A program made the translations under genes and the position numbers. From NCBI GenBank assembly GCA_902728285.1, contig CACVBU010000271.1:1830239-1894238 (forward strand): a DNA stretch of 64,000 bases. The letters are read 5' to 3'. Below the pieces are notes generated by a model. The model saw nothing but the letters and a program-made list of their open reading frames with translations, had not been told where the DNA came from and ran no database searches. This stretch comes from Clytia hemisphaerica (Eukaryota > Cnidaria > Hydrozoa > Leptothecata > Clytiidae). Numbering within the stretch: position 1 is the stretch's first letter; each line of letters opens with the position of its first letter. This document shows positions 6,161 through 44,711 of this stretch, piece by piece.

Positions 6161-6362
6161 GACTTGTAAAAGTTGTGTTTTCTGTGTTCGATCCAATAGC
6201 TGCAAAAAATTCATTTTTTATGATAGGACTTGCAAATGTTGTGTTTTCTGTGTTTTGTGTGTTCGATCCAATAGCTGCAAAAAATTCATTTTTTATGATA
6301 GGACTTGCAAATGTTGTGTTTTCTGTGTTTTGTGTGTTCGATCCAATAGCTGCAAAACTTTA
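6154..6362 (+). repeat. Minisatellite, about three ~75-base units
   Basis: Three near-identical units of 'gataggacttgcaaatgttg', then 'tgttttctgtgttttgtgtg' and 'ttcgatccaatagctgcaaa', occur in tandem; the first is slightly shorter. The repeat is open in more than one frame, giving a cysteine-rich 176-codon frame over 6132-6662 that I regard as a by-product. A segment near 6490-6540 is an inverted partial copy, so the region may fold back on itself. Confidence 0.75.
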
Positions 6363-7390: not shown

Positions 7391-8413
7391 AGCCCTAGGA
7401 TACTGTATCTAGTGATTAGAAAATACTATTAACTAAAAATTCGGCAAGTGTTTTGTTTTGATGATACAAGCTTGCGGCCAAAATTTCAAAATTGGACGAA
7501 TTTTCATGCTGAAAGTGAACATTTTAGGTAAAAAAAAGACTAGTCTGTAAAATACCAACCACTCACGTCACTAAATTGAAATTTTGCACTGTCTTAGATG
7601 GTCAATGTCTATCACTGGTAAAAATTTCAGGTCAAAAGCTCAAGTAGTTCCTGAGTTCCGGCAGCGGGTCAACGTATATTTTACAGACGGACCTCTCTGC
7701 AAAATACCAATCACTTATGCTGACAAACTTATGCTGACAAACTTTTTCTGTTACTTGTCTCTTTTATTTGTCAAATCAGCCTTCAGGAACAAACCCCCCT
7801 CCCCAAGATGCTTTCCCTAGCAAAAAATAGGAAGATGCTCGAAGGGTTTACACAAAATGAGCGGAAAAGATTTTCAATTTCACCTGATATTGGCTAAAAA
7901 GGTCTGTATAGAAATCTTGATTTCTGATGAAATTTTTAGGTTTAAATTAAAAATCGAATTACAGAGTACAAAATGAAGTTTGTATGTATAGACACTCTTT
8001 GAGGACTGGACATAAAGTCATGTGAACAGGATAAAATTGTAATTAATTTCAAAATCAGAAAAAAAAAGAAAGGCTGCCACAGCCATTTATGGGTCAGTAA
8101 CTGCTTTCCAAACACTGAAACATCGTATTCCATGGTGAGTAAGTGCTGCTGGTGTTAGTTCCGAAATGGTAATTTACTCGACCTAGTGCCATAAATGGAG
8201 CCTGCTCAGACTGGCTCAAATGGAGTTTTAGGGTTGGTAAAAAGGAAAAAAAATTGAGATTTGAATTTCTCAGGAAATCTCCCCAAAGTTAAAAAAAATT
8301 CCTAGCTATTCATTTTTTTTTTTTTTTGAATTAGTTTTTATTTGACGTCAGTTAGTCAACACGCATTTTGTGTAGTTCTTCAAAAATGGTTGAAATTTAG
8401 CAAAATCAAAAAC
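7391..8413. other. Intergenic, nothing recognised
   Basis: No supported gene. There is a T run at about 8315-8329 and A/T-rich low complexity just before the LINE ORF1 remnant. Confidence 0.4.
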
Positions 8414-9494
8414 ATGAACGAAAAAACCGACAAAAAGCAAGAAAAACAACCATTTGAAGAAGCTAAACAAAACCAAACATGCACTCCCACCTCCTGCTCA
8501 GATGATGATGACCAAAACCGTCTAAAATGCCGAAAATGCCACCGCATGGTACACTACGAGTGCACACAATTACCGCTTTATCAGCTGCAAATTTTTGCCA
8601 ACACTTATAACGAACAATATCTATGTCAGAATTGCGTGCGGATAACACGATCTCTAATGAGTAAAATAGGTGAGAACTCGTATCATATGATGCAGAGGGA
8701 GATTGAGAAGAAGGACGACGTCATTAAAAAGCTCAAAAACCAGCTAGCCAAGAACCGCAGCCTTAAGAACGATATCGAAAACATCTTAACAAATAAGATG
8801 GCTGACTTTGAAATAAAAACCAAGCAGATTATAAAAGAAGAAATAAAGCAAACTACGAATTACATAGAGAAAACATCAGAAAAAACATACGCTGAAATAA
8901 CTAAGAAACACAAGGATAATTTCAAATCAGCAGTGAGAGAACAACAAGAAAAAACAAAAAAAGAAACAAGAATGAAGAAAGAGACATCGAATCAAGAAAA
9001 CGAAATATTATTATACATGGAATGGTGGAATTAGAGGTAGACAACAAAGAGGAACAACAGGAACAAGACAAAATAGATATTCAAGGTATACTAGGTAACA
9101 TTGGCGTTCAAGATATCAAACCGTCCCACCATCATCGCATTGGACAAAACCGAAAAGGGCTACATTGGCGTCCAAGCAAGTTGATCTTAAAAAGTATAGA
9201 GGAAAAAGAACGGATAATGCAAAATCTGCATAAGCTGAAACGATTCAATGAAATTGGTGGCTTTATATCACAGACGACTTCACCATCAACGAAAGAAAAA
9301 TTATTAAAGATATGTGCCAAAAGGCGAAAAAAATGAATTCAAAAAATGACGATTTCGTTTGGCATGTAAGAGGAAGCCCTAGAACAAACCTTCGCCTAGT
9401 TCGAAAACCTAGGACGAAGACCAAAACAACGTCTTCTCTTCTGTCCATATCTTCTGACGACTGGACGACAGATGAAGAATTAGACAATTTATAA
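8414..9494 (+). pseudogene. LINE ORF1-type protein: PHD-like finger, coiled coil, RRM-like RNA-binding region; frameshifted
   Basis: From ATG 8414 the frame encodes a Cys/His cluster at 8478-8640 (TCTPTSC, LKCRKCHRMVHYEC, LCQNC) of PHD type. A long Lys/Glu/Gln-rich helical stretch typical of coiled coils follows. The frame breaks near 9000-9020. The next block (IHGMVELE, then RIGQNR, LILKSIEEKERIMQNL) and a third frame after about 9336 (VRGSPRTNLRLVRKP) follow the order of the RRM-like and C-terminal parts of ORF1 proteins in L1, CR1 and related LINEs. Such proteins bind element RNA as multimers. At least two frame breaks make this a dead copy, and I find no ORF2 (endonuclease/reverse transcriptase) downstream. 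The family is well supported; the clade is not. Confidence 0.75.
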
Positions 9495-10213
9495 ATCTAA
9501 AATTATTTCGTAGAGGTCGATAGACCTGTGAAATATAATTCTATGAATATTGAAAAAGGATACTTCGCCGTGTTAATTCAAGACAGATTTAAGTCCATTT
9601 TTTCCATTTTGAGATAATCGACTTTAAAGGTTTCATTTGCTTTATAAACTTTGGAACAAATAATGCCCTAAGTCCATACTTTTGATATTATAGAACCATT
9701 ATAGGTATCCTTTTGTGGTTTAAAGGATATTTTCATGGCTTGCTCACGAGGCTCTGAAATGGCAATTTTAAGTGACATCATTGGACTTCAGTTTTTTTTA
9801 CCAGAAGTAAATTCTTATTTTTACTGACTTAGGGCCACTTTTGCATAGATATTTTCAAACCACTACATACATCAATTGAAGAATTTAGATTACAGAAGTG
9901 AGAGGCCATGTGAATTCTGAACTTGGAACTTTCCCTCTCTACATTTGCCCAAGAAGACAAGCAAAAAGAATCTCAACAACAGCTATCGTTAGCTTTAGTC
10001 TACACTGACATTGATTCAAATAGTAAAGGATTATCTAAAGTATTGGTTAAATACTGGATCATACAGCACCTTTCAGTTTTTAAAACTAGATATCAGATAA
10101 GCTAAAGTCTCCTCACTCAGACAAGCTTCAATCTTCCACACCAAAGCAGCAGAACTATTCAAAGGTCGGCGAGGCTAAGTCTGAAGACTCTTTAATGAAT
10201 CCAATCGGTCAAC
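9495..10213. other. Unassigned; possibly eroded start of the BEL/Pao polyprotein
   Basis: A 60-codon frame at 9923-10105 and neighbouring sequence look mildly coding but match nothing I can name. Position suggests it may be decayed gag-pol linker of the element that follows. No LTR was identified. Confidence 0.3.
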
Positions 10214-10850
10214 TTGGAAAGAGAAGATCGAAACCACCGTAAATGGACATGTCAAAGGAAGGAGTCATGTCTATCACAGGTTGTCCCTATTCGTGTAAAG
10301 AATGCTCGGATTATGTGGGTTGATACATACGCCATGCTGGATACTGGCAGCCAATGTACCTTTATTACCAAATCCCTTTGCAATGAGCTAAATCTTCAAG
10401 GAAGAAAGACCAAAATCAACTTCGGTACAATCAGAGATGTACCATTTTACCGACAAAGCTGGTTGATCTTACGTTACCAAACGAAAGTGAAAATTGTGTT
10501 CTCCCTCAATGATTCAGATTACAATGTACCAGGACAAGAAGTTCCAGTAACAACTGATTCTAGCTGGGATTACATCAGAGATCTCGGTCTTCAAGACATT
10601 AACAGCAGAAAAGTACAACTACTGATCGGTGCTGATGTTCCAGACGTTCTCATCAGCTATGATTTGAGAAAGTCAGAAAAGGCTACCCATATGCTTTAAA
10701 GACTCGACTCTGTTGGACTCTGCGTGGAGTATACGATGGTACTTCAGTTCTGATTGAAAATCGAATAGTTGCACTGACCAGAAATTTGGGGATCAGAAGT
10801 GAATTCTCTGAGGCTGAATACAGCAGTTTTTGGGAGAGTGAATCATACTG
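10214..10850 (+). pseudogene. BEL/Pao retrotransposon protease region
   Basis: The frame contains YAMLDTGSQCTFI, the active-site motif of a retropepsin-type aspartic protease in BEL/Pao context. It is followed by the family's usual downstream signature (VPGQEVPV, IRDLGLQDI, VQLLIGADVPDVL) over about 160 codons. A frame change near 10680 then continues into the short YALKTRLCWTLRG-like linker seen before the reverse transcriptase in BEL polyproteins. Broken frames show it is inactive. It belongs with the reverse transcriptase, RNase H and integrase remnants that follow. Confidence 0.85.
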
Positions 10851-17132: not shown

Positions 17133-17205
17133 GGACCTGTAGCTCAATGATAAGAGCAAATGCCTGCATATGGCATGGTTGTGAGTTTGAGTCTCTCCAA
17201 ATCTG
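17133..17205 (+). repeat. tRNA-like head, probably a degraded SINE
   Basis: 'ctgtagctcaatgataagag' resembles a pol III A box and D arm. 'gttgtgagtttgagtctc' resembles a B box with its T arm. An ATGCC/GGCAT stem lies between them in the place of an anticodon arm. The acceptor ends do not pair and the loop does not give a normal anticodon context, so a functional tRNA is unlikely. A tRNA-derived SINE fragment is the better reading. Confidence 0.35.
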
Positions 17206-22567: not shown

Positions 22568-23204
22568 CCTTTTACATTATTTTATTCCCCCAGAGATTCG
22601 TGGGGGAATAAAAATCCTCGGCTTCAAGCCAAAGTGCCAAAGGACCGTAGCTTTTTGACTGCAGCAAAAACTTTACCAATAAAATTTGTCACTGCGAAGG
22701 AGTATTTTTGTAAACAAAGCTCAAAAACAGAGGCGAGGAGGAACTGATGTTTTGCTACATTTCGAACCAAAACATTCGAAAAAATGTAACTTTAGAAACA
22801 TTCTAAAATGTACCAAGAGAGTTCGAAATGTTGCAGAATGTTGTGTTTTTATTTATTTTGTGCTTTGAACTTTGAAGAGTCACTTTTCAAAAAGTTTTTG
22901 GAATGCCCTTATAGTAGTTGTTTTTATATCCTTTTCTAACACTCATTTCAGTTTTTTGAAACAATTATGGGTCATTTCAGCAAAAGAAAAATTGATTGAA
23001 ATTGGTACTCCCTTATGAAACATTCATAATAATTGTTGTCTCTAGAGACTTTTCAATGATTAACGGTATTTAAAAGAATGGAAGTCTTTTGTAATCGCGA
23101 TGTACATCGAAGGAACAGTAATTTTGTCTCCGTTATGTTCTTTATTGTACACTTTGAGAAATATTCCACAGAGGCTCTCAACTTATTCACTTTGGTTCCT
23201 TTTT

Positions 23205-23660
23205 AGAGAACAGTTTTGTCTGTTGATAGAAAAGAATGTGTCCCGTGACAAATGTCCAATTAGTTCGCTTTTCATTTTCAAAACCATTCCCTCGAGAAAT
23301 GAATAATTTCTTCTAACCCACCAGTGAACAATTTCGCACGTTAAATTAGAACATAATATCCCTTGATAAAATGTCCAACTTGATATTTTTAAGAAAGGAA
23401 TACTTTGTTCCATTCTGTGGGAGAACGATTTTGTACGGCAAAATAAAAGAGAATGTACCATGACAATTGTCTAATATGGTGGCGTGTTCAATATCAAAAC
23501 CTTTCTCTCAATACAGGAATAAGTTCTTCCAATACTTAGAGAACAATTTCGTATGTTAATATGAAACAAAATGTCTTTTGATAAATGTCCAATTAGCTTG
23601 CTTTTTCTGTACAGAATCGACTCAAAGGGAAGCAACTCTTCTAATCTGTAAGAAACCATG
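23205..23660 (+). repeat. Four diverged ~115-base repeats upstream of the recombinase gene
   Basis: Four units in a row share the order 'agagaacaattt(c/t)gt', then 'aaatgtccaatt' and 'gaataatttcttct', starting near 23208, 23323, 23421 and 23537. They are only moderately similar to each other, unlike the homogeneous arrays further right. They lie between 380 and 840 bases upstream of the start codon. They are repeated in copy 2 (26.34-26.80 kb). Position and form would suit protein-binding iterons, which is inference. Confidence 0.55.
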
Positions 23661-24041
23661 CGTTGTAAGCACTAGAACATTTCCAAATCCCAAGTTCTTA
23701 TAATTTGAGTATCTTTTGCACGGACTAAATATTTCTAAAAACTGAAGTTAAATGTCCTCCTTACCTTTATTGATATGGTTCCAGTTAGTTCCGTTGTCAC
23801 TTAATGAATAAAAGTTCAGTCTGGAACCCTCATTTATGGGGACAAAATTTGTTGTTTTTTCGGCGCCAAATAATTTTTACCCCCGTTTAACAAGTAAACC
23901 AATCAGAAGGCTGCAAATATAATAAGATGATAATAAATTTCCTTGTTTTAAAAGAATAGGACACCCCGTGTAAATGAATATTTCCTGAATCAAAATAGTA
24001 TATAAGGACCTAATTTATATACTAAATTATCAAAAGCCGGT

Positions 24042-26019
24042 ATGGCACGCCGACGAGTGCTCTTCGTAGACTGGAATTCACTCAATGGATCAGCAAATGG
24101 AAAGCGGAAGTTGATTTTCGAAGAAAACGATAAAGGTAAATTCACTTGTCCAGCTAAACTTTGCTTACATGCCGACTTTGGTAGTAAACGGGGCTTGCGG
24201 AAACACATCGACAATAAACACCCCTGGCTTTATTATTTTGATGATCAGCCTGAGATCAATAGACAGGAAATTGAACTGAATCAACCAATGGCTCATAGAA
24301 AGGCTGCTACCCACTCAAAACCTCACTATTCTATAGAAGACGGTATCGGCAAGGCGTTTCTCAATTGGCTACGAACTACCTGTGGCGGAGGTAAAAATGA
24401 AAAGGAAGCTAACCAGACCGCCAAACGTGCACTCAAGTTTTTGATGTGTAGTACTGGGGACAATGAATCTCAGGCATCATTGTCTTATGAGCTGATCGAT
24501 TGTTGTTTGGGCTCGACAAGCATCATCTTAAAATTCATGACTGTATTAGAGGAGGAATGGAAACTGTCTTCCTCTGGAGCATTGAACTATGTAAAATCAA
24601 TCTCTGATTTGATGGATTATAGAAAAGCGATGGGGATCAATGATAGCAAATTGCGTTGTTTTACTATTACAGAGGTTTACTTGAGAAGGGCAAGGGATAA
24701 TCTAAGGAAGAAAAAACGTCTTGATAGCACAAGAAATTTTGATTTAGAAACCCTCATTGGTCGCGACAGCTGGGCAAGCTTGGAAGAAATGGAGCGGGTT
24801 ATCCCTCACCATATCAATGGCTTCAAGCAGGTTGTTGAAAAGTGCAAATCGCAAACACCATTACCTACCAAGCAGGAATTAACATTTTGCACTCGTTTCG
24901 TGACAACCTATCTTTTTTTACGTGTTAAATGCAGCAGACCCATGACATTTCAATATCTAACTCTTCCGATGATCGAAAAGGCAAAGCAGACTGATGGCTT
25001 CATTGATCAAAGAGAATTCAAGACAAGTGGTAAATATCTATTCGACACTTTAATTCTAACAGAGGAAGTCTTTACAATTTTGGATAATTACATCGATATT
25101 GTCAGACCTCACATGAAGCCAGCATGCCACTATCTTCTGGTATCAACAGCCGGAACTCAATACCAATCCTTAACAAGTGCAATGACGATCCTTGTTCACC
25201 AAGCAATAGGAAAGTACATCCATCCAACTCGCTACAGACAGATTATCGAGACCGCCAGTGCTGACAGGTTATCCCATTCAGAACAAGAAATAGTCTCCGA
25301 AGATCAAAAAACATAGCTCAGAGGTAGCAAAGGTCCATTATAAAGAAAAAAACAGTCAAGAATTGTGGCAACGGAGGGGAAAAGATGCATGGAAAAAAAT
25401 GCTTGGAGACGCACGAAAGGACCAACAACAAGCCATTTCAGGTATGTATACCGAGTTTGTCGTTCTACATCTGTAATTATACGTCAATCGATACTTGGGT
25501 TAGCAGCCGTATTGAGAGAGAAAGAGAGTAATATATGTGGTAGTGTGAAGGGTTCGAGCACAGACTTGCACCGCAAAGGACTGTGTTCGAATCCCATGCA
25601 CTTCCAGGCAGGATTTATTTTATGGTGAAAGATTCACTAACTTCACTTATAATTTCAGGTATATTCAAAGATTTGGCTGAAATATCCAAATTTCCATCGA
25701 TGAGCGTGGCAAGTGAAAAAGCAGGACCATCGACAAGCAATGTAGCTTCACCTTATGTGGTAAACTCTGACGAAGATATGCTTGATTCCGAGAGCATCGA
25801 AAGACAAAGTATAGAAGTTAATACTATTTTGCAACGAGTTCAAAACATGTGTTCGCCGGATGATAACGCAAATCTTGACGACAGTGAGGGTATCCAAATG
25901 GAAGTAGTGAGATCAGTGGATGAAGAAGCACCCGTCACATTGGAAGAATCGATTGTTTACGATAGAACCACGACAACTCGAAATTCATCAAGAAAAACGG
26001 AGGTTGAAGTAAAAGCTCA
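24042..26019 (+). CDS. Crypton-like tyrosine recombinase, copy 1 (frameshifted near the catalytic Tyr; 3' end missing)
   Basis: Exon 1 (24042-25441) encodes a C2H2 finger (C36, C41, H55, H60) and a helical core-binding region. The recombinase catalytic domain follows: Arg299 in CSRPMTF, Lys328 in REFKTSGK, and the box HPTRYR with His394 and Arg397. The second His and Tyr433 (VAKVHY) follow after a one-base A-run difference near 25310 that breaks the frame in this copy. Intron 1 (25442-25658, GTATGT...TTTCAG) joins in phase to exon 2, an acidic Ser/Thr-rich tail that runs into the undetermined base at 26020. These enzymes cut and rejoin DNA through a covalent tyrosine link. The arrangement recalls Crypton elements but with added finger and tail. 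ATG 24042 is the only sensible start. Confidence 0.82.
25550..25595 (+). other. Hairpin with pol III B-box-like arm in the recombinase intron
   Basis: GGGTTCGAGCACAG and CTGTGTTCGAATCCC are imperfect inverted repeats (one mismatch, one bulge) separated by 17 bases. The right arm contains GTTCGAATCCC, which matches a B-box/T-arm consensus. The same hairpin lies in copy 2 at 28666-28711. It could be a tRNA-derived scrap, or an inverted-arm site for the recombinase; the 17-base core is longer than the 6-8 bases usual for such sites. Confidence 0.5.
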
Positions 26020-26050
26020 NCGCGGAGGGAATAAAAAACAATCGAATGGC
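26020..26050. other. Undetermined base and junction sequence between the duplicates
   Basis: The single n at 26020 is followed by 30 bases (cgcggagggaataaaaaaca...) not present at the matching place in copy 2. Copy 2 begins at 26051. This looks like a scaffold or haplotype join, not a biological breakpoint. Confidence 0.8.
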
Positions 26051-29000
26051 TTATAGTAGTTGTTTTTATATCCTTTTCTAAAACTCATTTCAGTTTTTTG
26101 AAACAATTATGGGTCATTTCAGCAAAAGAAAAATTGATTGAAATTGGTATTTCCTTATGAAACATTCATAATAATTGTTGTCTCTAGAGACTTTTCAATG
26201 ATTAACGGTATTTAAAAGAATGGAAGTCTTTTGTAATCGCGATGTACATCGAAGGAACAGTAATTTTGTCTCCGTTTTGTTCTTTATTGTACACTTTGAG
26301 AAATATTCCACAGAGGCTCTCAACTTATTCACTTTGGTTCCTTTTTAGAGAACAGTTTTGTCTGTTGATGAAAAGAATGTGTCCCTTGACAAATGTCCAA
26401 TTTGTTCGCTTTTCATTTTCAAAAAACCATTCCCTCGAGAAATGAATAATTTCTTCTAACCCACCAGTGAACAATTTCGCAAGTTAAAGTAGAACATAAT
26501 ATCCCTTGATAAAATGTCCAACTTGATATTTTTAATAAAGGAATACTTTGTTCCATTCTGTGGGAGAACGATTTTGTACGGCAAAATAAAAGAGAATGTC
26601 TCATGACAATTGTCTAATATGGTGGTGTGTTCAATATCAAAACCGTTCTCTCAATACATGAATAATTTCTTCCAATACTTAGAGAACAATTTCGTATGTT
26701 AATATGAATAAACAAAATGTCTTTTGATAAATGTCCAATTAGCTTGCTTTTTCTGTACAGAATCGACTCAAAGGGAAGCAACTCTTCTAATCTGTAAGAA
26801 ACCATGCGTTGTAAGTTCTTATAATTTGAGTATCTTTTGCACGGACTAAATATTTCTAAAAACTGAAGTTAAATGTCCTCCTTACCTTTATTGATATGGT
26901 TCCAGTTAGTTCCGTTGTCACTTAATGAATAAAAGTTCAGTCTGGAACCCTCATTTATGGGGACAAAATTTGTTGTTTTCGGCGCCAAACATTTTTTACC
27001 CCCGTTTAACAAGTAAACCAATCAGAAGGCTGCAAATATAATAAGATGATAATAAATTTCCTTGTTTTAAAAGAATAGGACACCCCGTGTAAATGAATAT
27101 TTCCTGAATCAAAATAGTATATAAGGACCTAATTTATATACTAAATTATCAAAAGCCGGTATGGCACGCCGACGAGTGCTCTTCGTAGACTGGAATTCAC
27201 TCAATGGATCAGCAAATGGAAAGCGGAAGTTGATTTTCGAAGAAAACGAATAAAGGTAAATTCACTTGTCCAGCTAAACTTTGCTTACATGCCGACTTTG
27301 GTAGTAGTAAACGGGGCTTGCGGAAACACATCGACAATAAACACCCCTGGCTTTATTATTTTGATGATCAGCCTGAGATCAATAGACAGGAATTGAACTG
27401 AATCAACCAATGGCTCATAGAAAGGCTGCTACCCACTCAAAACCTCACTATTCTATAGAAGACGGTATCGGCAAGGCGTTTCTCAATTGGCTACGAACTA
27501 CCTGTGGCGGAGGTAAAAATGAAAAGGAAGCTAACCAGACCGCCAAACGTGCACTCAAGTTTTTGATGTAGTACTGGGGACAATGAATCTCAGGCATCAT
27601 TGTCTTATGAGCTGATCGATTGTTGTTTGGGCTCGACAAGCATCATCTTAAAATTCATGACTTATTAGAGGAGGAATGGAAACTGTCTTCCTCTGGAGCA
27701 TTGAACTATGTAAAATCAATCTCTGATTTGATGGATTATAGAAAAGCGATGGGGATCAATGATAGCAAATTGCGTTGTTTTACTATTACAGAGGTTTACT
27801 TGAGAAGGGCAAGGGATAATCTAAGGAAGAAAAAACGTCTTGATAGCACAAGAAATTTTGATTTAGAAACCCTCATTGGTCGCGACAGCTGGGCAAGCTT
27901 GGAAGAAATGGAGCGGGTTATCCCTCACCATATCAATGGCTTCAAGCAGGTTGTTGAAAAGTGCAAATCGCAAACACCATTACCTACCAAGCAGGAATTA
28001 ACATTTTGCACTCGTTTCGTGACAAACCTATCTTTTTTTACGTGTTAAATGCAGCAGACCCATGACATTTCAATATCTAACTCTTCCGATGATCGAAAAG
28101 GCAAAGCAGACTGATGGCTTCATTGATCAAAGAGAATTCAAGACAAGTGGTAAATATCTATTCGACACTTTAATTCTAACAGAGGAAGTCTTTACAATTT
28201 TGGATAATTACATTGATATTGTCAGACCTCACATGAAGCCAGCATGCCACTATCTTCTGGTATCAACAGCCGGCACTCAATACCAATCCTTAACAAGTGC
28301 AATGACGATCCTTGTACACCAAGCAATAGGAAAGTACATCCATCCAACTCGCTACAGACAGATTATCGAGACCGCCAGTGCCGACAGGTTATCCCATTCA
28401 GAACAAGAAATAGTCTCCGAAGATCAAAAACATAGCTCAGAGGTAGCAAAGGTCCATTATAAGAAAAAACAGTCAAGAATTGTGGCAACGGAGGGGAAAA
28501 GATGCATGGAAAAAATGCTTGGAGACGCACGAAAGGACCAACAACAAGCCATTTCAGGTATGTATACCGAGTTTGTCGTTCTACATTTATAATTATACGT
28601 CAATCGATACTTCGGTTAGCAGCCGTATTGAGAGAAAAAGAGAGTAGTATATGTGGTAGTGTGAAGGGTTCGAGCACAGACTTGCACCGCAAAGGACTGT
28701 GTTCGAATCCCATGCACTCAGGCAGGATTTATTTTATGGTGAAAGATTCACTAACTTCACTTATAATTTCAGGTATATTCAAGATTTGGCTGAAATATCC
28801 AAATTTCCATCGATGAGCGTGGCAAGTGAAAAAGCAGGACCATCGACAAGCAATGTAGCTTCGCCTTATGTGGTAAACTCTGACGAAGATATGCTTGATT
28901 CTGAGAGCATCGAAAGACAAAGTATAGAAGTTAATACTATTTTGCAACGAGTTCAAAACATGTGTTCGCGGGATGATAACGCAAATCTTGACGACAGTGA

Positions 29001-29190
29001 GGGTATCCAAATGGAAGTAGTGAGATCAGTGGATGAAGAAGAACCCGTCACATTGGAAGAATCGATTGTTTACGATAGAACCACGACAACTCGAAATTCA
29101 TCAAGAAAAACGGAGGTTGAAGTAAAAGCTCAATCGAAAAACAAGGCAAAGAATGTAAAATTTCCATCGAAGAAGACGAACAGTTATTAA
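26051..29190 (+). repeat. Tandem duplication, copy 2
   Basis: A near-identical second copy of 22909-26019. It includes the upstream 115-base repeats, the TCTCTAGAGA palindrome, the recombinase gene, its intron and the intron hairpin. Its differences from copy 1 are mostly one- or two-base indels, plus a 25-base deletion at about 26815 between short AAG repeats. Confidence 0.9.
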
Positions 29191-29338
29191 AAGGTATTTT
29201 AAGACATGGCGAAAAAGTTGGACAGCAATCTTAAAGGACACACAATACCAATTCCATCCAACGCGGAACCGAGATTCTCTTAGAGTGCGTGCAGACACGG
29301 CAGCTTTCAAAAAACTAAAGAAGAAACAACCCAAATAA
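27161..29338 (+). pseudogene. Crypton-like tyrosine recombinase, copy 2 (several indels; carries the SANT/Myb-like C-terminus)
   Basis: Exon 1 is 27161-28557 and exon 2 is 28773-29338, with the same intron as copy 1. Small indels relative to copy 1 interrupt the frame near 27250, 27305, 27391, 27569, 27661 and 28024, and one A is missing near 28784. The second catalytic His and the Tyr (KHSSEVAKVHYKK) are in frame here. Beyond the point where copy 1 stops, exon 2 encodes ISIEEDEQLLKGILRHGEK and, after a break near 29213, W..IL and FHPTRNRDSLRVRADT. This is the pattern of a SANT/Myb DNA-binding helix bundle, followed by a basic tail ending at TAA 29336-29338. The duplicates complement each other's breaks, which points to consensus error or recent decay. 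Confidence 0.78.
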
Positions 29339-29599
29339 ACAGAAAACTGGAATTAATATTTTCTTAACTTAACATTTATGATAAAATTGTATATATTACA
29401 TTAAAAATATCAAAGAATTTATAGAAAAATTTTTAGAGCGATAAACAAAACTAAAAAATTTTCAAAACACTGCTTCCAAAATTTAACATGCTTGTTCCCA
29501 ATAATATCAACATCTTCTTTGCTACTAGTGAACCATAGATGCGATCAATTTCGGCAGCTCATGAATACAAAACATTATTTTCTTTTCTTATTCGAGATT

Positions 29600-31260
29600 G
29601 TTTCTAAAAATAGCCTGCTTGTTCCACTTAGTGTCACATTGTTCCTTGTTGTTACCCATTTCTAGAGAAAAAGTGGGATAGTGCTGTTCTAAGTCCGTAA
29701 AATTTTTAACTTTATCTTGTTCCCAGATTGTTCCCTAAAAATAGCCTGCTTGTTCCCGTTAGTGTCACGTTGTTCCCGGTTGTTACTTATATTCTAGAGA
29801 AAAGGTGGGTCGAAATTGTAGATTTTTCTTGTTCCCAGATTGTTCCCTACAAATAGCCTGCTTGTTCCCGTTAGTGTCACGTTGTTCCGGTTGTTACTTA
29901 TATTCTAGAGAAAAGGTGGGTCGAAATTGTAGATTTTTCTTGTTCCCAGATTGTTCCCTAAAATAGCCTGCTTGTTCGTTAGTGTCACGTTGTTCCCGGT
30001 TGTTACTTATATTCTAGAGAAAAGGTGGGTCGAAATTGTAGATTTTTCTTGTTCCCGGATTGTTCCCTAAAAATAGCCTGCTTGTTCCCGTTAGTGTCAC
30101 GTTGTTCCCGGTTGTTACTTATATTCTAGAGAAAAGGTGGGTCGAAATTGTAGATTTTTCTTGTTCCCAGATTGTTCCCTAAAAATAGCCTGCTTGTTCC
30201 CGTTAGTGTCACGTTGTTCCCGGTTGTTACTTATATTCTAGAGAAAAGGTGGGTCGAAATTGTAGATTTTTCTTGTTCCCGGATTGTTCCCTAAAAATAG
30301 CCTGCTTGTTCCCGTTAGTGTCACGTTGTTCCCGGTTGTTACTTATATTCTAGAGAAAAGGTGGGTCGAAATTGTAGATTTTTCTTGTTCCCGGATTGTT
30401 CCCTAAAAATAGCCTGCTTGTTCCCGTTAGTGTCACGTTGTTCCCGGTTGTTACTTATATTCTAGAGAAAAGGTGGGTCGAAATTGTAGATTTTTCTTGT
30501 TCCCAGATTGTTCCCTAAAAATAGCCTGCTTGTTCCCGTTAGTGTCACGTTGTTCCCGGTTGTTACTTATATTCTAGAGAAAAGGTGGGTCGAAATTGTA
30601 GATTTTTCTTGTTCCCAGATTGTTCCCTAAAAATAGCCTGCTTGTTCCCGTTAGTGTCACGTTGTTCCCGGTTGTTACTTATATTCTAGAGAAAAGGTGG
30701 GTCGAAATTGTAGATTTTCTTGTTCCCAGATTGTTCCCTAAAAATAGCCTGCTTGTTCCCGTTAGTGTCACGTTGTTCCCGGTTGTTACTTATATTCTAG
30801 AGAAAAGGTGGGTCGAAATTGTAGATTTTTCTTGTTCCCGGATTGTTCCCTAAAAATAGCCTGCTTGTTCCCGTTAGTGTCACGTTGTTCCCAGTTGTTA
30901 CTTATATTCTAGAGAAAAGGTGGGTCGAAATTGTAGATTTTTCTTGTTCCCAGATTGTTCCCTAAAAATAGCCTGCTTGTTCCCGTTAGTGTCACGTTGT
31001 TCCCGGTTGTTACTTATATTCTAGAGAAAAGGTGGGTCGAAATTGTAGATTTTTCTTGTTCCCAGATTGTTCCCTAAAAATAGCCTGCTTGTTCCCGTTA
31101 GTGTCACGTTGTTCCCGGTTGTTACTTATATTCTAGAGAAAAGGTGGGTCGAAATTGTAGATTTTTCTTGTTCCCAGGTTGTTCCCAAATTTAGCCCGCT
31201 TGTTCCCGTTAGTGACACGTTGTTCCTTATTGTTAAACAATTTTCAGAGAAAAGGTGGAT
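29600..31260 (+). repeat. Satellite array, ~15 units of ~112 bases rich in TTGTTCC (direct orientation)
   Basis: Units read TTCTAGAGAAAAGGTGGGTC, then a T-rich stretch, TTGTTCCCAGATTGTTCCCT, AGCCTGCTTGTTCCCGTTAG, and TGTCACGTTGTTCCCGGTTG. The spacing of GCCTGCTTGTTCC is 108-123 bases, and most central units are nearly identical. Each unit carries about five TTGTTCC words and one TCTAGAGA palindrome. The array lies between the 3' ends of two converging genes (recombinase, ending at 29338; helicase, ending at 31382). Its edges are more diverged (29480-29600 and 31180-31260). Open frames across it are by-products. Confidence 0.95.
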
Positions 31261-31381
31261 TTTCACTTGAGGGCTCCTCAGAAACTTATATTTTATGAAA
31301 TATAATGACAATAACACGACATTACAAAAGAATTTATAAATCTAGTTATAGGGTTTCAAAGATATAAAAAGTATGGAACAA

Positions 31382-34300
31382 TCATACAATGACAAAATCT
31401 TCTTCGATATCAGAATCCGGTATTTCGATTGGGTTTGTTATCTCTGAGGAAGTTTTGCGTACAGGTTTTATACGGATCTTTGGCTTGACCTCACCCCCTT
31501 CTTCTTCGTCTGTTGTGATCAAGGAGACTGGGTCCGTGATTACAGAGGGCGTTTTTCTACCTTTAATTCGTGGCGGTTTCTTATCTTCGTCCGAAGCGCT
31601 TTCCGTTGACGTGCCACTATCGATTTCATTTGACTTTTCCAATTTCTGTGATTTCTTCGTCCGCTTCAGGGATGGAAGAACTTCATCGTCGTCATCACTT
31701 GTATAGTCGCTGTAAAGAATCTTCAAGAGATGTAGAGGAGATCTTTTGAAGACTTCGGCGGTGAAGGTGCAGAGTTTTGCTCGAACTTGATGGGTGGAAG
31801 AACTTCCCTGGGAACACTTTTTCCTTTGATAGGACTGAAGTTTAACACTCGGTTGGGAAGTGTCGTTTTTGTTGAACTAGAAGAGTTAGAGTTTTGCTCT
31901 GCTACATTAGTAGGGTTGGAGGTTGAAACATTGGGGGGCATATCCTTTAACGGAGTTTCAGGCACCGTTTCCTGCCGTGCCAGCCAAGCCTCGTAAAACG
32001 TGTCTCCGCCACGCCATTGCGTTTTCTTCTTATCTCGTACCTAAAAAAATAATGAATCAGCCGTCAATATAACATCGGTTTCGTGGTGCTGGAAGTTTCC
32101 TTATGTTTCAATCGGAGCATGGAGCATAAGAATTCGAATCCATAATATATTCAATGGTAAAAATTGGCAATTAACAATTTGCAGGGCAGTTAATCACACT
32201 TTGAGAGAAATAATAACAAATACCTCTTTATGTCCTCCTGGTTGATAGGCACCTTCTTCCATCCTCGTTAGACATGTAGTTCAAAGTATTGATACACAAC
32301 TGTAATGAGTAGTTCCTTTCTCCGTGTAGAAAAGTTGGTGTGTTTTAGCCCACCTAGCTGGAGTTGCCTCGTCCGACTCAAGAAAATAGAAATCCATATC
32401 CTCGTCATCCACAATCGGGTCTCTGACAATTTCCTGTTGTATTAGTTCATGGGCAGACTGAGAACATGATAATTCGTCTTCCTGAAAGTCTGACTCCATA
32501 ATTAGCTTGTCGGAACCCGCCGTCATAACGTTGTATATGCTTCCAATTGTCATCTTTAGTAGAAAATACGTAAGCGTCATCGCAGCTCTCGAATAGGGGC
32601 GTCTCTTTAAGCACCTCTGAACAATAATGAATGACCTCCATGCAGTGACGCCTCAGCCATCCTGTTAGAATGATATGGAAACCGTTCATTTAAATCAGCT
32701 GGATAATCAAGACGTGAGACATAGGAAATACATAATCTACTATACGCTCTAAGAAATTGCAAAAAAAATTGCTTCAATTTAACAACCGTAGTTTTTTGAA
32801 ATGCACTAATCGTAATTACTGTAATGCCTTACTTGTTACACTGGAATCATTCTTTGGTAACGGTTTTGTTGAGAACACCTTCAGCCGGTTGTATACAGCG
32901 TCATGATCTTTCGATATTCCAAAGTTTGGTAGCACATTCGTAGTGATAAAGAAACCCGAGTTGTACATCACCTTTGTTGCACTGGCGTGTTTCTGTGAGA
33001 GCATGATTAAAACCACCTAAAATAGAAATGATTGAACCCAAATTGTCAATGTTTTACTCGAGACACGCCCAAATTCACTTTGCGCAGGAATCGATATGCC
33101 AATAGTCTACCTCTCGAAGATAAGATTGAAATAACTTTATCATTTTACCTGAAGTATACGCTTTGCATCTTCACAACTAAGACTGTTAACAGTCACTCGT
33201 CCATGAACACCAACTCGGTTTGATTGTTTATCAAATGTCCTGCAAATCTTCCCTCTTGGGTGACTCCAGCGATGTTTTCTGTTGGTATTAAACCTTCGAA
33301 TACGGCAGCCCAGCTGGTTTTGCCCGAATTTGAGTCGCCCTCTAGCAAAAGTTTTGGCTCCTTCATTGGGAACTTTTTGTGCAACAATAGTTGAAAATAT
33401 TTCTGCAAGAAATGAACTCGTGTCTTCCGTTCGGGAAAACTGTTCATTATTCCTGAAGAGAAAAAAAAAAGAAGGTTTTCATAGTTTCAAACGAATTTTA
33501 CAAGTTCAAAAGTTTTATGTCACTTTTCAAGTATATCGAAATGTGTCGAAATGACAAAGGCCAATTAAAAAATCTGGAAGTGGTTACCTTGTATGAAAGT
33601 CCAGGATATGGTACGTATGATTTATCATATGTGTAGCGGATGAACGCACGGGTGTGCACCCTTCAGGAAAATTCCTGATTTTGTAAAACCGCTCTCTTGA
33701 AATTACGAAGATGGTACGTGCCGGCAACACTTCAATGATATTGTAAAGTATCTTCAGTGGCTTTATCAATCCGCAGTCTGGATCTGAAAGCAAATTCGAT
33801 ACCGAATTGATGTGCGATGCCAGCACATTGGCGACCGAGCCAACACGGAGTGATCTCATCAGGAACCTCTTCACTGTAAGACAGTACACGTAAGAGAAAG
33901 CACTATCTGGAGCCTTTTTGTAGATTTTCCCGTTACAGATGGCATAGCTTTTCTCCTTCATGAACCTTGATAGCTCTGCTACAGCAATACAAATTGGATC
34001 GGTTGGAATGAACGATGGTGTAAGGTTAGAAGCTGAAAAGGAAAAAATTATATAAGTAATAAGTGAAAAAGCCACCATCCATCTTTTCTCTAGAATATAT
34101 GTAACAACAAAGAACAACGTGACACTATCGGGAACAAGCAGGCTAAATTTGGGAACAAGTTCGGAACAAGAAAAACAGCCATTATCCACTTTTTCTCTAG
34201 AAATTAAGTAACAACAAAGAACAACGTGACACTAATGGGAACAAGCAGGCTAAATTTGGGAACAAGCTCGGAACAAGAAAAAAAGTTCAAATTTCAAAGC

Positions 34301-37210
34301 CTAACCATCCAAGATTCACTTTTTCTCTAGAAATTAAGTAACAACAAAGAACAACGTGACACTATCGGGAACAAGCAGGCTAAATTTGGGAACAAGTTCG
34401 GAACAAGAAAAACAGCCATTATCCAATTTTTCTCTAGAAATTAAGTAACAACAAAGAACAACGTGACACTAACGGGAACAAGCAGGCTAGATTTGGGAAC
34501 AAGCTCGGAACAAGAAAAAGAATTCAAATTTTAAAGCTTAACCATCCAAGATTCACCTTTTTTCTAGAAATTAAGTAACAACAAAGAACAACGAGACACT
34601 AACGGGAACAAACAGGCTAAATTTGGGAACAAGCTTGGAACAAGAAAAAAAATTCAAATTTCAAAGCCTAACCATCCAAGATTCACTTTTTCTCTAGAAA
34701 TTAAGTAACAACATAGAACAACGTGACACTGACGGGAACAAACAGGCTAAATTTGGGAACAAGCTTGGAACAAGAAAAAAAATGCAAATTTCAAAGCCTA
34801 ACCATCCAAGATTCACTTTTTCTCTAGAAATTAAGTAACAACAAAGAACAACGTGACACTAACGGGAACAAGCAGGCTAAATTTGGGAACAAGTTCGGAA
34901 CAAGAAAAACAGCCATTATCCACTTTTTCTCTAGAAATTAAGTAACAACAAAGAACAACGTGACACTAACGGGAACAAGCAGGCTAGATTTGGGAACAAG
35001 CTCGGAACAAGAAAAAGAATTCAAATTTTAAAACTTAACCATCCAAGATTCACCTTTTTTCTAGAAATTAAGTAACAACAAAGAACAACGAGACACTAAC
35101 GGGAACAAACAGGCTAAATTTGGGAACAAGCTTGGAACAAGAAAAAAAATTCAAATTTCAAAGCCTAACCATCCAAGATTCACTTTTTCTCTAGAAATTA
35201 AGTAACAACATAGAACAACGTGACACTGACGGGAACAAACAGGCTAAATTTGGGAACAAGCTTGGAACAAGAAAAAAAATTCAAATTTCAAAGCCTAACC
35301 ATCCAAGATTCACTTTTTCTCTAGAAATTAAGTAACAACAAAGAACAACGTGACACTAACGGGAACAAGCAGGCTAAATTTGGGAACAAGTTCGGAACAA
35401 GAAAAACAGCCATTATCCACTTTTTCTCTAGAAATTAAGTAACAACAAAGAACAACGTGACACTAACGGGAACAAGCAGGCTAGATTTGGGAACAAGCTC
35501 GGAACAAGAAAAAAAATTCAAATTTCAAAGCCTAACCATCCAAGATTCACCTTTTTTCTAGAAATTAAGTAACAACAAAGAACAACGTGACACTGACGGG
35601 AACAAGCAAGCTAAATTTGGGAACAAGCTCGGAACAAGAAAAACAGCCATTATCCACTTTTTCTCTAGAAATTAAGTAACAGCAAAGAACAACGTGACAC
35701 TAACGGGAACAAGCAGGCTAAATTTGGGAACAAGCTCGGAACAAGAAAAAGTTAAAAATTTTACAACCCTAAACAGCCACTATCCACTTTTTCTCTAGAA
35801 ATTAAGTAACAACAAAGAACAACGTGACACTAACGGGAACAAACAGGCTAAATTTGGGAACAAGCTTGGAACAAGAAAAAAAATTCAAATTTCAAAGCCT
35901 AACCATCCAAGATTCACTTTTTCTCTAGAAATTAAGTAACAACAAAGAACTACGTGACACTAACGGTAACAAGCAGGCTAAATTTGGGAACAAGCTCGGA
36001 ACAAGCAAAAGAAGATTTAATTTCAAAGCCCTTTAACAGTGTTAGGCGATAATTTTATTTAAAACTTACCATTGGAAGATTCTGCATCGTCAATGGTAAA
36101 GGCTATAGTCAAAAATTGGATATTTTTCATTGCTTTGTGAAGATCTTGTCTCGAATTTTGCGGCATTGATGGTCTAATCGTCAGTTTGGCAAATGGTTCA
36201 CCCTCCTCAAAATCTTCAAAAATCGGATTCTCGGTTAGTGTGAGCCCATCTCTTTTGCGCAGTTTTTCTTCGGACAGCCTCGAAAAGAATTTCATGCCTT
36301 GTTGATGATGGCCGTGGAAGCGTGGTCTTTCAAACCTGACACAGCAATCTGGAATAAACTTCGGCTGTATCGATCTTGCCTCTTCCTGATTAAAAGAACA
36401 TTTCATTATTGAATTTATTAGTAAGTAAAAATCAAGAAAATTTAGAAAAGGGGAGTAGATTTTTTGACATGACAAGAAAAAAATGATGGAGATATGAAAA
36501 GTATTTTATGACACCACCATCTCATAATCATTTGTATTCATTCCAAAATATAAACAAGCCAATAAGTAAAAACTTACCTCTCACTGTAATCGGCTTACAC
36601 GAAGAACGTCCAACCCGGCAAGCATCATTTTGAGGAAATGTCAGTTTCAAATTTTGCCACCCCACGTTTGGTTGATGTTATAGCGATCCAAAAAGACACG
36701 CCTAAAAATATAAAAAATTCCAATGAGCACATGTTCGGAGAAAATAAAGAGTTATATTTTAAAAGTAAAAGCAAAACGAGAGTACCATTTATTCACAAGC
36801 TGTCGGAGAAAATATCAGATATGGTTTAAAGATTGAACACGCCACACAGAGGACTAAAGTATAATATATGTACCTGGTATCATTGCTTCGTCATCATCCT
36901 CATATTGTTGGTATTCTTGGTCACTTTCAGTATTTCCATTTGTTTTTTTCAGTTCTTTTCTCAAAATAGAGGACTGCATGGCACACGTGCAAGAAAAATA
37001 GGCTACCACATCGTCATATAAGTTCACGATCGATTCAAGTTCGTCTCGTTTGCTATCTATATTATAGCTTGCTAAATTTATATCTTGTTCTTGTACATCC
37101 CAAAGACAACGTAGAGTAACAACAAAAAATTTATCTTTAAAAATCGGCACCAAAAAGTTCTTAAATGCATTTCGTACTGTAGAACTCCTGATAGTTCTTT
37201 TTACAGACAT
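31382..37210 (-). CDS. SF3-type helicase of a large mobile element, eight exons, with small frame breaks
   Basis: Minus-strand exons with GT-AG borders: 37210-36874, about 36701-36578, 36385-36070, 34032-33588, about 33439-33149, 33016-32833, 32698-32224 and 32040-31382. They total about 940 codons. Phases agree at most joins (exons 3-4, 4-5, 6-7). The ATPase core has Walker A (GDSNSGKTSW, about 33312-33342), Walker B (LVFMDE, about 33200-33222) and an SF3 motif C (FITTN, about 32945). The first half is unassigned; no HUH nuclease is evident. The C-terminus is an acidic, Ser/Thr-rich tail (TSDDDDE, SDIEEDFVIV). Frame breaks: A run near 36620, the TG after Walker B at 33196, about 32650, about 32535, about 32283, and an A run near 31745. 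SF3 helicases unwind replication origins of small DNA viruses and plasmids, so a replication role is inferred. Intron 3 (2,037 bases) carries the inverted satellite array. Confidence 0.78.
34055..36045 (-). repeat. Inverted satellite array in intron 3 of the helicase gene, ~16 units
   Basis: This is the reverse complement of the 29.6-31.3 kb unit: 'aagaacaacgtgacactaac', 'gggaacaagcaggctaaatt', 'tgggaacaagctcggaacaa', ending at 'tttttctctagaaattaagt'. Units alternate between about 113 and about 130 bases, depending on whether an insert around 'cctaaccatccaagattcac' is present. Neighbouring pairs repeat in a higher-order pattern, so local amplification has occurred. The array almost fills the intron (34033-36069), leaving short normal borders with donor GTAAGT and a T-rich acceptor. 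Confidence 0.95.
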
Positions 37211-37260
37211 TGCAGTCCAAACAGTGCACACGCGAAGTGAACACTATTTGATTATATGCC

Positions 37261-37700
37261 TTAAGGGAAGAAATTTTCGCGAGAAGAAATTTTCGCGGAA
37301 GAAATTTTCGCGGAATTTAATTTCGCGAATTGGGGCGTAATTCGCCAAATTAAATTCCGCGAAACACACCAAAATTGTGAAATCGCGAAATTAAATTCCG
37401 CGAAATTCGATTTTTTTTCTTCTTCTTTTATTTTGTTGTTTTTGACCAGGTGTTACCAAAAAAGATGGACACAATTGATTTTTAAGCATTATAACGTGTA
37501 TTTTTTATCAAATATAAACGAATATATACAACTCCGTGATGCTTAAAAGTTAATCTAAGTTGATAACTTCTTCTCAATCGCGAAATTAAATTCCGTGAAA
37601 CTTTTGAAATCGGCTCATTCGCGAAATTAAATTCCGCGAAATTTGCCATTTTGAAACTTTGATTCGCGAAATTAAATTCCGCGAAAATTTCTTCCCTTAA
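37261..37700. mobile_element. TTAA-flanked MITE made of TTCGCGAAATTAAATTCCGCG repeats
   Basis: TTAA at 37261-37264 and 37697-37700 flank inverted ends GGGAAGAAATTTTCGCG and CGCGAAAATTTCTTCCC. The interior repeats 'cgcgaaattaaattccgcga' in both orientations. A TTAA target with short GGG-type ends fits a non-autonomous piggyBac-like element. It sits about 50 bases upstream of the first ATG of the helicase gene, in its presumed promoter. Confidence 0.82.
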
Positions 37701-38190
37701 GGTAATACTTAGGTGTAAAATGTCAGAGCTAAAGAATTTGCATTATCGTCAAATAAAGTCATTGTATTTTTTGATTTTTTTAAATTCTTTCTCAAAATTT
37801 GTTGACAGTAAAATTACTTGATTGAAAATAAAAGATCCGAAAAATTACAAGAAATATGGGCTTCAAACTTTTTGAAAGAAAAGGCATAAATCATTAAATG
37901 TTTTTATGAAAAAATATGTTTTTCTGCAGAGCCCCTTTATTTTGGGGCCCATACTTATTTTTCTTTCATTCAGTCACAGAACGTCAGAAATAGGGGAAAC
38001 ACGTTTTATAATTTTTTCAAATTTAGTTTCAATAATTTTAAATTGCAGTAAAACTGCTAAGCTATGCTGCTACCAATCGTTTTTGGCTTAACAATTATCT
38101 TATTTTTATCTTTGCTTTGTGGTTTGATTATGGTCCCTGTATAACAAAGTTCCTTGGTATGATATAATTTGCGGCAATTGAAATTTTTTC
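37701..38190. other. Intergenic, nothing recognised
   Basis: AT-rich sequence without supported features. Confidence 0.4.
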
Positions 38191-41412: not shown

Positions 41413-44400
41413 TCAATTAGAATGTAGACTACTATACGGGTCTCTACTACGCGAATCGCCTTCATAAACAGGTGGGTAAATAGCGTCTTCTTTTCCTAGG
41501 AGCACTTGCTTATTAACATCATCCAAAACTCCTTGATACCTTTTAGTGATACAGTCAGAAGGGATTCCTTTCCGTTTCATAAGACGTTTCACACCACGAC
41601 ATTTAGTGTTTATTTTTGTGGTCAAAATCTTCCATACGGTCTCCTCTTCATCTTCATTTTCGCCTGGAAATTTCCTGAAAACTGTTTCCTTGACTTTCGC
41701 TATCTTCACTGGATCTAGCATAAATTTCCCGCGCGCTCCTGTTACGTTCGAATGAGCAAGCGTTGAGCGGGTGAATAATGTTTCAATCAAAGTCCTGGTA
41801 AACTCCTCGCGATTACTTTGTACACGTTTCTTATCGGACACAATGTCACAGGGCAAACCTCCAATATCTTGGTGAACATTTTCCATATATTTGTCAGCCA
41901 GTTTATCACAAAGTTCAATAACAGATTGTGGATCTGATGGCACGTTATGTAATACGAGACCACAACGTTCGAAATTATCATCCATGTCAGCACAGTTTCC
42001 GTTGCTGATGTCATCACTACCATTATCATCATCCTCGTCAATCACTTTCACTTCAATATCGGATGTTTCACCAGGCGTTTTAATTGACGAAGCGAAAGAA
42101 TCAGCATTTTCGAATTTAATGGAATTTGATGAATCTGGTCTTTCTTGGTAACGGGTTGAAGTTGAGGAAGCTTCAACTGTGATTGTTTCCGTATATTTCA
42201 TAGCATTTGTACCGGAAAAGGATGACACAGATGCGGGTGTCGGTCGCTCCACAGGTGGGTGAACCATAGAATTGATCCTTTCTGGTACTGATTTCCAAGA
42301 TCGTTCTCCTGATGCACATTCCACAGAACTCGTATCGCTATCCGATGAAGATTGATGGCGTGTAAGGCGATTCTCATTGGCGACGCCCGAGGGTGGAACA
42401 AAGGAACAACGCTCATAATCACTGAAAGATTCTTTTCGATATTTGGTTGTCGTCGGAGGTATATGATGATCGTATGGTAAAGTTTTCATTGAGTGTGATT
42501 TCATATATTCCTCCGTTGGAGGTTGTGCACTATTCTCCAGCTCCCAGATAGCTGATTTACGTTTTAAAGTGCGAGTCACTCCACGACATTTAGCATTTAT
42601 TTTATCGCATATATATTTCCATAGATACTCTTCATTTTCCGTGGAGCGCACTGGATAAGTCCTGAAAACAGTTTCGCGAATTTTATTAATTTTGCTAGGA
42701 TCTAATAACCGTTTCCCTTTAACTCCGCGTACATTGGCGTCCGCGAGATCGTCATATTGAAACAATTGATCGACTAAATGGCGTGCTAGTTCTTCGCGTG
42801 CCGTCTGTGAAAACTGTTCAGCGGTTTGGTAAGACTGAGCTTGGTTGTAAGTATCGTAGTAGGTTATAGAGCTTGCTGATTCAATGGTAGCAGTGGGCGG
42901 GTGTGGCGGACGCACAGGGGCGGTATTTATGAGGGTTGGAATAATACGTGATACTGGAGCTTGGGCGTTTGTATAATGATGTTGGATTGGACTTTTGCGA
43001 TGGTACGTTTCGTACATTCGTTTGTAATCGGTATTCGAACGAGCTGCATTTGACTCAAGTCTTTGCCTAGTATGTTCATTGTTTGGTCGAGTTGATGACT
43101 CGTATCTTTGTTGAGGTTGTTCGAGTTGATGATTGCTGCCGGGTCGAGTTACTTCAGGTTCTGGTCGGTGGTCTCTTGAAAGTTTACGTAATGGTGGCCA
43201 GGAAGCTTCGGCTTTTGTCGTTGCAGGTTGTAAATGATGTGCAGAGGCTTGCTGAGGTTGTTGGTGTTTGTGTCTAACTTCTGAAGTATCAGCAGTTGGT
43301 GGAGATATTGAGGTAGCAAATACGGAGTCAATTTTATCGAAAATCTCGACCTTAAGATTCTGCAATTTCCGATCAATAGCCCGACCTAAATTTTGCTCAA
43401 ATGAAAAATCGTTTGAAGGCCTTTCATTGGATGGATCGGTTTGTGTTGATTGTTCTTTCGAGGAACCTGATTGGTTGATAGTTGTGACACGTGATTCTGA
43501 ATTCGGTAAATGATTGGACATCTCGCTTTCTAATGCGTTGATTTTGACTAACATTTCCTCGCGCAGGCGCGAGATTTCAGATCGTAGATTCTGTACTTTT
43601 TGATTATCTGAATCTATTTTGTGTGAATCTGACGAATCAAGAAAATGGTCAATGTCTTTTACTGGTGATGACGTAGATGGTGGACGTTCTTTTTGAGGAT
43701 AAAAATCGATTGAATTCGTTTTTGTTGAGAAAGAGTTATTTTTTTCAACAAGCGGTGGTACAGTGTTGTTGATATAAGGAAAATCTTTCATGAACAGCCC
43801 AGGAGGAGAATGGTTTCTATTTAATACTGGCGTTGGCTGCTTCTGATTGATGCAATGTACTTCAGAAACCTTAAAAGAAAGGTGAATAATATTTTTAAAA
43901 AATCTCTCAAGTTTTCGTTGGAAAAAGAAGAATACAATATGAAACAATAATTGAGCTAATGTCGACATAAATAAATTTCGAGGGGATTAAATAGCTTGAG
44001 AAGATTCAATAGCGGCAAAAGCTAATCTTGGAGAGACAGCAATTTCTCTAATTTCTTTAATTTTATCAAGAAGTAATTTTGATAAGTTTTGGGCTAAATT
44101 AGCTAAAGACATTTTTGGTTTCAAGTCTTTGAAGAGCGTTTGATGGGAGAAAAAAACTTCATAAAATGTGAAATCAAATTATCTTAACGGCCAATAGACA
44201 CCTGCGAACTATATTTCTATGTTTCTTTAAACAAGCTATACTTTCTGTGTTTTTTTTCCTGCAATTTTGTGAGCTCTGTCAGTATCCTTGAGTTTGTTTT
44301 GTGTTTTGTTTCTACAGTTTTACGGTTTTACAATCTGCAATTTTGTGAGCTCTGTCATTATCCTTGAGTTTGTTTTGTGTTTTGTTTCTACAGTTTTACG

Positions 44401-44711
44401 GTTTTACAATCTGCAATTTTGTGAGCTCTGTCATTATCCTTGAGTTTTTTTTGTGTTTTCTTTCTACAGCATATTTTTTTCATAGAATATAATTTCTTTT
44501 ATTTAAATATGATTATTTTTACATAGGACAAATAGCCATTGTAAAATATGGAAGAGCCTGAAAGACAATTAATAAATAAAATAAATAAAAAATAAAACAA
44601 GGTATTCGTACTATTTTTTGTTGAAAACATATAATGTTTTTATACCTTGTTAGCGATTTGTGGTGCAGCGATAAGATGTGGTGGAGGGACGGGTTCTTCA
44701 ATACTTGCCAT
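41413..44711 (-). CDS. Protein with two BEN domains (two exons, ~840 aa)
   Basis: Exon 1 (44711-44646) encodes 22 residues starting MASIEEPVPPPHL and ends in an AAG|GTATAA donor. Exon 2 (43869-41413) follows a TTTCTTTTAAG acceptor and joins in phase 0. After a Ser/Pro/Gln-rich start comes a predicted coiled coil (about 43520-43620, SEISRLREEMLVKINALESE). A long disordered linker follows, with BEN domains at about residues 380-460 (42800-42555) and 710-790 (41808-41560). Both show the family pattern L..LF....LA.(A/S)NV.G..GK..LDP.KI.K...TVFR.(Y/F)P, W..I..KIN.KCRGV.R..KRK. BEN domains bind DNA and usually mediate transcriptional repression or chromatin organisation, so a nuclear role is likely. 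The frame is intact throughout, unlike the neighbouring element genes. The first ATG upstream of 43869 in the exon 2 frame lies in the intron and is not the start. Confidence 0.88.
44261..44470. repeat. Tandem repeat, 76-base unit, in the BEN gene intron
   Basis: 'gcaattttgtgagctctgtc' begins units at 44261, 44337 and 44413, each continuing 'cttgagtttgttttgtgttt' and 'ctacagttttacggtttt'. The third unit is partial. It lies inside the 776-base intron (43870-44645). Confidence 0.85.

Follow-up and report, generated by a model that had tools for sequence, protein, structure and literature searches.

A candidate transposon of the jellyfish Clytia hemisphaerica pairing a tyrosine recombinase with an SF3 helicase and repeat arrays

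According to excerpts of one account of Cryptons (PMC3212892), members of this group in animals encode a recombinase only and are said to have neither a C-terminal domain nor terminal repeats, and some in fungi and oomycetes carry a second gene, a peptidase. The published case nearest to the locus described here is, in excerpts of PMC4642659, a Polinton-like group that combines a tyrosine recombinase and an SF3 helicase with capsid genes. Another near case, found in excerpts from a set of four sources (PMC3212892, PMC11071296, PMC4642659 and PMC3537659), is a single animal virus genome with a primase-superfamily 2 helicase, a tyrosine recombinase and virion genes. A search of the openly licensed PubMed Central literature gave no description of the combination reported below in an animal transposon; Repbase could hold an entry.

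Results

Two insertions are joined in the window

We analysed a window of 64,000 nucleotides (the whole stretch of DNA under study), which lies on contig C193 of the Clytia hemisphaerica genome, and searched that genome (417 Mb, 951 contigs). The only N in the window, at 26020, lies between two copies of the left 3.1 kb of a repeated element. Both copies begin with CTTA followed by TAGTAG, their flanks are unlike, and 4 substitutions and 9 indel positions distinguish their recombinase genes; the window therefore joins a partial copy A (22908..26019, plus strand), the left part of a second insertion with a left flank of its own, broken off at the assembly join, to a complete copy B (26050..37263, plus strand, 11.2 kb). 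This N, where two insertions of one transposon meet, is likely to be a scaffolding error. We thus reject the 14.3 kb extent (22909..37210) given in an earlier note on this DNA, because it fuses the two insertions at 26020.

Copy B runs from CTTA at 26050-26053 to CTTA at 37260-37263, and blastn of 20 stretches showed that its ends are common to other copies, with element units aligned on C730 (two), C820, C230 and C41. Defining the ends by aligning several insertions, as the earlier note had proposed, gave ten distinct left junctions (CTTA followed by TAGTAGTTG) and seven right junctions (ATATGC followed by CTTA) in a search that tolerated three errors, so that ends more diverged than that escape it. 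The outer flanks vary from locus to locus. CTTA is thus the terminal direct repeat, within the 4-6 bp range of Crypton repeats, and both genes lie inside the ends. Besides these genes and their antisense, the ORF list for copy B contains no ORF of 80 aa or more.

Elements also occur head to tail, at intervals of 10,332 bp (C730) and 11,477 bp (C455). The joins on both contigs read ATATGC-CTTA-TAGTAG with a single common CTTA, the product expected if a circle were to integrate at its own site, and unequal exchange or misassembly can also give rise to tandem clusters. The earlier suggestion that the element recombines in and out is thus borne out as regards the CTTA repeat and the tandem joins that resemble circle integration, with the circle itself inferred. 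Immediately to the right of the element, both C41 and C820 carry a sequence whose start resembles a related left end (CTTAATGTAGTTGATTTTATACC and CTTAATGTATATAATTTCTGG) and which continues into a related recombinase gene (62% and 54% identity, respectively), and on C695 the left-hand sequence encodes a 38% match to the helicase start. From these abutting sequences, relatives appear to act as landing sites. For copy B and the C230 copy, the right CTTA falls within the end sequence (CCTTAAGG) of a short inverted-repeat element, possibly a preferred target. The window copy of this short element occupies 37259-37702, with TTCGCG-rich termini and CCTTAAGG ends. Judged by eye, there was no strong inverted symmetry around CTTA.

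The recombinase is maintained by selection

The recombinase ORF of copy A (24042..25316, plus strand) encodes a C2H2 finger and a tyrosine recombinase domain, as indicated by the ORF list, fold models and conserved residues. In copy B the gene has a first exon at 27161..28557 (plus strand; frameshifted in this assembly, donor site placed by eye) and a last exon with a Myb tail at 28773..29338 (plus strand; acceptor placed by eye), which is open in L010 at 588-1232, the Myb domain being present in relatives. The predicted structure has the Xer/Cre fold of tyrosine recombinases, and the catalytic R, R and Y are present in 55 of 55 recombinases, with H at the HxxR position in 21 and N in 34 of the 55. 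The window recombinase matched no Pfam family at an E value of 1, and neither DUF3504 nor GCR1_C was found in five relatives. A Crypton recombinase is absent from the fold-library matches listed, which speaks neither for nor against Crypton kinship. The genome also contains 71 DUF3504 (Crypton-type) recombinase matches, many in open frames.

Copies A and B and six other copies differ from one another by 0-17 substitutions across 1,269 recombinase bases, and copy B has no substitution relative to the C230 copy. More distant comparison, between C730 and C207, gave a pS of 0.86 and a pN of 0.10, and C730 against C41 gave a dN/dS of 0.07 with few changes; the protein has therefore been maintained by selection.

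The helicase gene

The SF3 helicase gene (31382..37210, minus strand) has eight exons with GT/AG introns, at 37210-36874, 36701-36578, 36385-36070, 34032-33588, 33452-33149, 33016-32833, 32661-32224 and 32040-31382; the boundaries were set by eye and are backed by proteins P0135 and P0140. Exon 5 (33149..33452, minus strand) encodes Walker A and B, as seen in the ORF list and exon searches. P0135, a Clytia hemisphaerica protein, is 98% identical to a window helicase exon over 128 residues. The picture of a recombinase gene converging on an eight-exon SF3 helicase gene, drawn in the earlier note, thus holds for both genes and the arrays, with a different extent and with frameshifts in both genes of copy B.

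The helicase has the SF3 fold and motifs in a weak predicted structure (pLDDT 57). Searched against the viral library, the model's top match was a D5 primase/helicase, and the SaPI5 primase-helicase stood at VIA rank 2. A single exon searched against solved-structure sequences gave nothing reliable (best E 0.11), the profile reached papillomavirus E1 at E 0.35, and the PHROGs search returned no family. BLASTP of P0132 against two window helicase exons found no match, and the N-terminal part is therefore poorly conserved. For one exon compared between C730 and C355, pS was 0.71 and pN 0.39, a weaker selection signal than that of the recombinase. Another cnidarian, Rhopilema esculentum, has a protein of the same helicase family (P0144, 37% identical).

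The two genes recur as converging pairs

Nine helicase loci at 98-100% identity are each adjoined by a converging recombinase at 97-100%. Across the genome, the recombinase search yielded at least 106 matches (99 scored of 448 candidates) and the two helicase exon searches 85 and at least 151, merging into at least 97 recombinase and at least 141 helicase loci. Among the matches listed, pairs within 15 kb of each other were converging in 42 cases (not all independent, tandem clusters being counted more than once), divergent in 9 and same-strand in 2, against 0.98 expected by chance for all orientations together. Several divergent pairs are neighbours inside tandem clusters (C730, C455, C41, C820 and C352). 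Converging pairs take in 41 of the 97 recombinase loci and 38 of the 141 helicase loci, with 56 and 103, respectively, having no converging partner among the matches listed. As controls, we paired 71 DUF3504 and 128 Phage_integrase matches with the helicase; neither class gave a converging or a divergent pair, and each gave 1 same-strand pair, about the chance number, both of these lying at one place on C459.

Identity to the window copy was correlated between the two genes (Spearman 0.91 over 37 of the 42 pairs, and 0.80 over the 28 that fall outside the subfamily of the window), with values taken by hand, C412 and four repeat pairings of an already paired locus left out, and pairs that share ancestry not being independent. 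Unpaired helicase loci, some of which have 300-aa open frames, may come from relatives whose recombinases have diverged further.

Together, these sequence comparisons support the view that one mobile unit holds both genes, because the copies share exact ends, converging pairs number 42 against 0.98 expected, and control recombinases form none. This was the central claim of the earlier note, which had named two outcomes as refuting it, homologues that are never neighbours elsewhere and boundaries that fall between the genes; within this genome neither holds, as pairs recur and the ends enclose both.

Phased repeat arrays

The two arrays of a TTGTTCC-rich unit described earlier are indeed present, one between the genes and one in helicase intron 3. 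Array 1 (29583..31260, plus strand) consists of 112-bp units with TTGTTCC/TTGTTAC sites, and array 2 (34058..36030, minus strand) of 107-130-bp units inverted relative to it. TTGTTCC occurs 57 times on the plus strand and never on the minus strand of array 1, and 47 times on the minus strand and never on the plus strand of array 2. In the one 112-bp unit that we tested, five sites are spaced 11, 22, 20 and 10 bp apart with a coherence of 0.95 at a 10.5 bp period, placing them on one face of the helix.

A 224-bp array 1 probe gave 225 matches; the matches listed come from nine contigs, each of which also carries a recombinase of the window's subfamily. The same plan recurs with altered sequence in three further elements: TTGTTACCCG in 10-bp steps within 109-bp units (L033) and TTGTCACCCG in units of 92-102 bp (L035), each in forward orientation and then inverted, and CCTTGTTACA in 99-bp units, seen in a single orientation (L025). 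On C355, where both genes are present, such an array was not found within the stretch examined, nor was one found in the stretch adjoining the recombinase on C75 (L039).

A short form has no detected helicase

One of these elements, L033 on C207, is about 6.5 kb long, with a window-like left end, a recombinase at 83% identity, two arrays that adjoin each other in inverted order and a terminus containing ACGCGAAGTGAACACT followed by CATATGC-CTT. It gave no match to the helicase exons. Its recombinase is intact without a helicase, and the helicase is therefore dispensable in cis. On C321, four recombinase copies fall into two pairs, and the spacing is exactly 7,376 bp in both, as would be expected of tandem short forms.

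Other features of the window

Outside the element, the window contains an 851-aa open frame with BEN domains (41416-43968, minus strand); ORFs with weak PHD finger and aspartyl-protease similarity, both below Pfam cut-offs (8342-10696, plus strand), perhaps retrotransposon remnants; a tRNA-like Rfam match of 33.3 bits unreported by ARAGORN (17133-17205, plus strand), perhaps a tRNA-derived repeat; and near-perfect tandem repeats of 75-76 bp units (6156-6357 and 44259-44469).

Discussion

Our results indicate that the element probably belongs to a DNA transposon family that has been active recently in Clytia hemisphaerica, operating as an integrative circle equipped with a replication gene of its own. 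The recombinase would join the two CTTA sites and free a circle, the SF3 helicase would open and replicate this circle from the arrays using host polymerases, and circles would reinsert by recombination at CTTA sites in the chromosomes, sometimes where a resident relative ends, so building tandem clusters. Judging from the SF3 helicase and the phased arrays, it is plausible that the element starts its own replication. Against the integrative-circle reading stand the unpaired loci, the array-free C355, the helicase-less L033 and the weak helicase model (pLDDT 57).

More tentatively, and leaning slightly to the sceptical side, we suggest that this could be the first integrative replicon without a capsid to be seen in animals. 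Such a chromosomal plasmid would use its own tyrosine recombinase to excise as a circle and its own SF3 initiator helicase to replicate from iteron-like arrays, and would then reinsert, with the ends of relatives among its targets; satellite forms devoid of the helicase would use it in trans. If so, it would form a new superfamily beside Crypton and Polinton, would connect an animal transposon to replication genes characteristic of DNA viruses, both small and large, and would offer a route for such helicases to pass between viruses and hosts. How eukaryotic tyrosine-recombinase DNA transposons gain copies is unsettled, and a replicative helicase with an origin-like array of its own suggests a testable answer, in a laboratory jellyfish that carries near-identical copies of the element.

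The alternative that survives best, though we consider it unlikely, is a Crypton-like transposon whose arrays are accessory recombinase sites for the Myb tail or the zinc finger and whose helicase is a passenger or recombination aid with no part in replication. The recombinase tail does resemble telobox Myb domains, which bind short repeats, and L033 retains arrays and recombinase where no helicase exon is matched; but array 2 sits inside the helicase gene, the helicase is retained with the recombinase in many subfamilies, and the SF3 helicases whose function is known act mainly in replication.

Much less probable is a viral remnant: an endogenous DNA virus of Polinton-like or similar type whose capsid genes were lost. 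Excerpts of PMC4642659 place a tyrosine recombinase and an SF3 helicase together in Polinton-like viruses and virophages, and D5 primase/helicase heads the viral-library matches of the helicase model, yet the element has no further long ORF and the same two-gene plan recurs in many subfamilies. A search of viral contigs, reaching close relatives only, also counts against such a remnant, having yielded no confirmed relative; with no further ORF of 80 aa or more in copy B either, we reject a capsid virus. Two unrelated mobile genes brought together by chance or nesting, as the many loci of either gene unpaired among the matches listed might suggest, are barely credible and are rejected within this genome by the pair counts (42 converging against 0.98 expected among the matches listed), the lack of such pairing for other recombinases and the shared ends that enclose both genes.

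Compared with known systems, DIRS and Ngaro elements share a tyrosine recombinase with the jellyfish element but need a reverse transcriptase; it has no candidate ORF long enough for one, and DIRS is rejected on this ground. Some Polinton-like viruses and virophages integrate and encode both proteins, tyrosine recombinase and SF3 helicase, but, in excerpts of PMC4642659, retain capsid and packaging genes, of which we found none. Cryptons, as described in excerpts of PMC3212892, share the tyrosine recombinase and the short terminal direct repeats, likewise lack a reverse transcriptase, and have a circle as proposed intermediate; the described groups have DUF3504 or GCR1_C, neither of which was detected in the jellyfish recombinase, and, unlike the animal Cryptons of that account, this recombinase has a Myb tail and the element has CTTA repeats. 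The element further adds arrays and, within the same ends (except in the L033 form), an SF3 helicase. Thus, as far as sequence can indicate, recombination resembles that of Cryptons, and two Crypton features, the DUF3504/GCR1_C domain and recombinase-only content, are not shared. SaPI-type phage satellites combine an integrase, an SF3-type replication helicase and repeated origin sites in an integrative, replicating element; they are bacterial and packaged by a helper phage, and the likeness drawn here is one of proposed function. By that analogy, it is these bacterial integrative elements that the jellyfish element would most resemble in the way it works.
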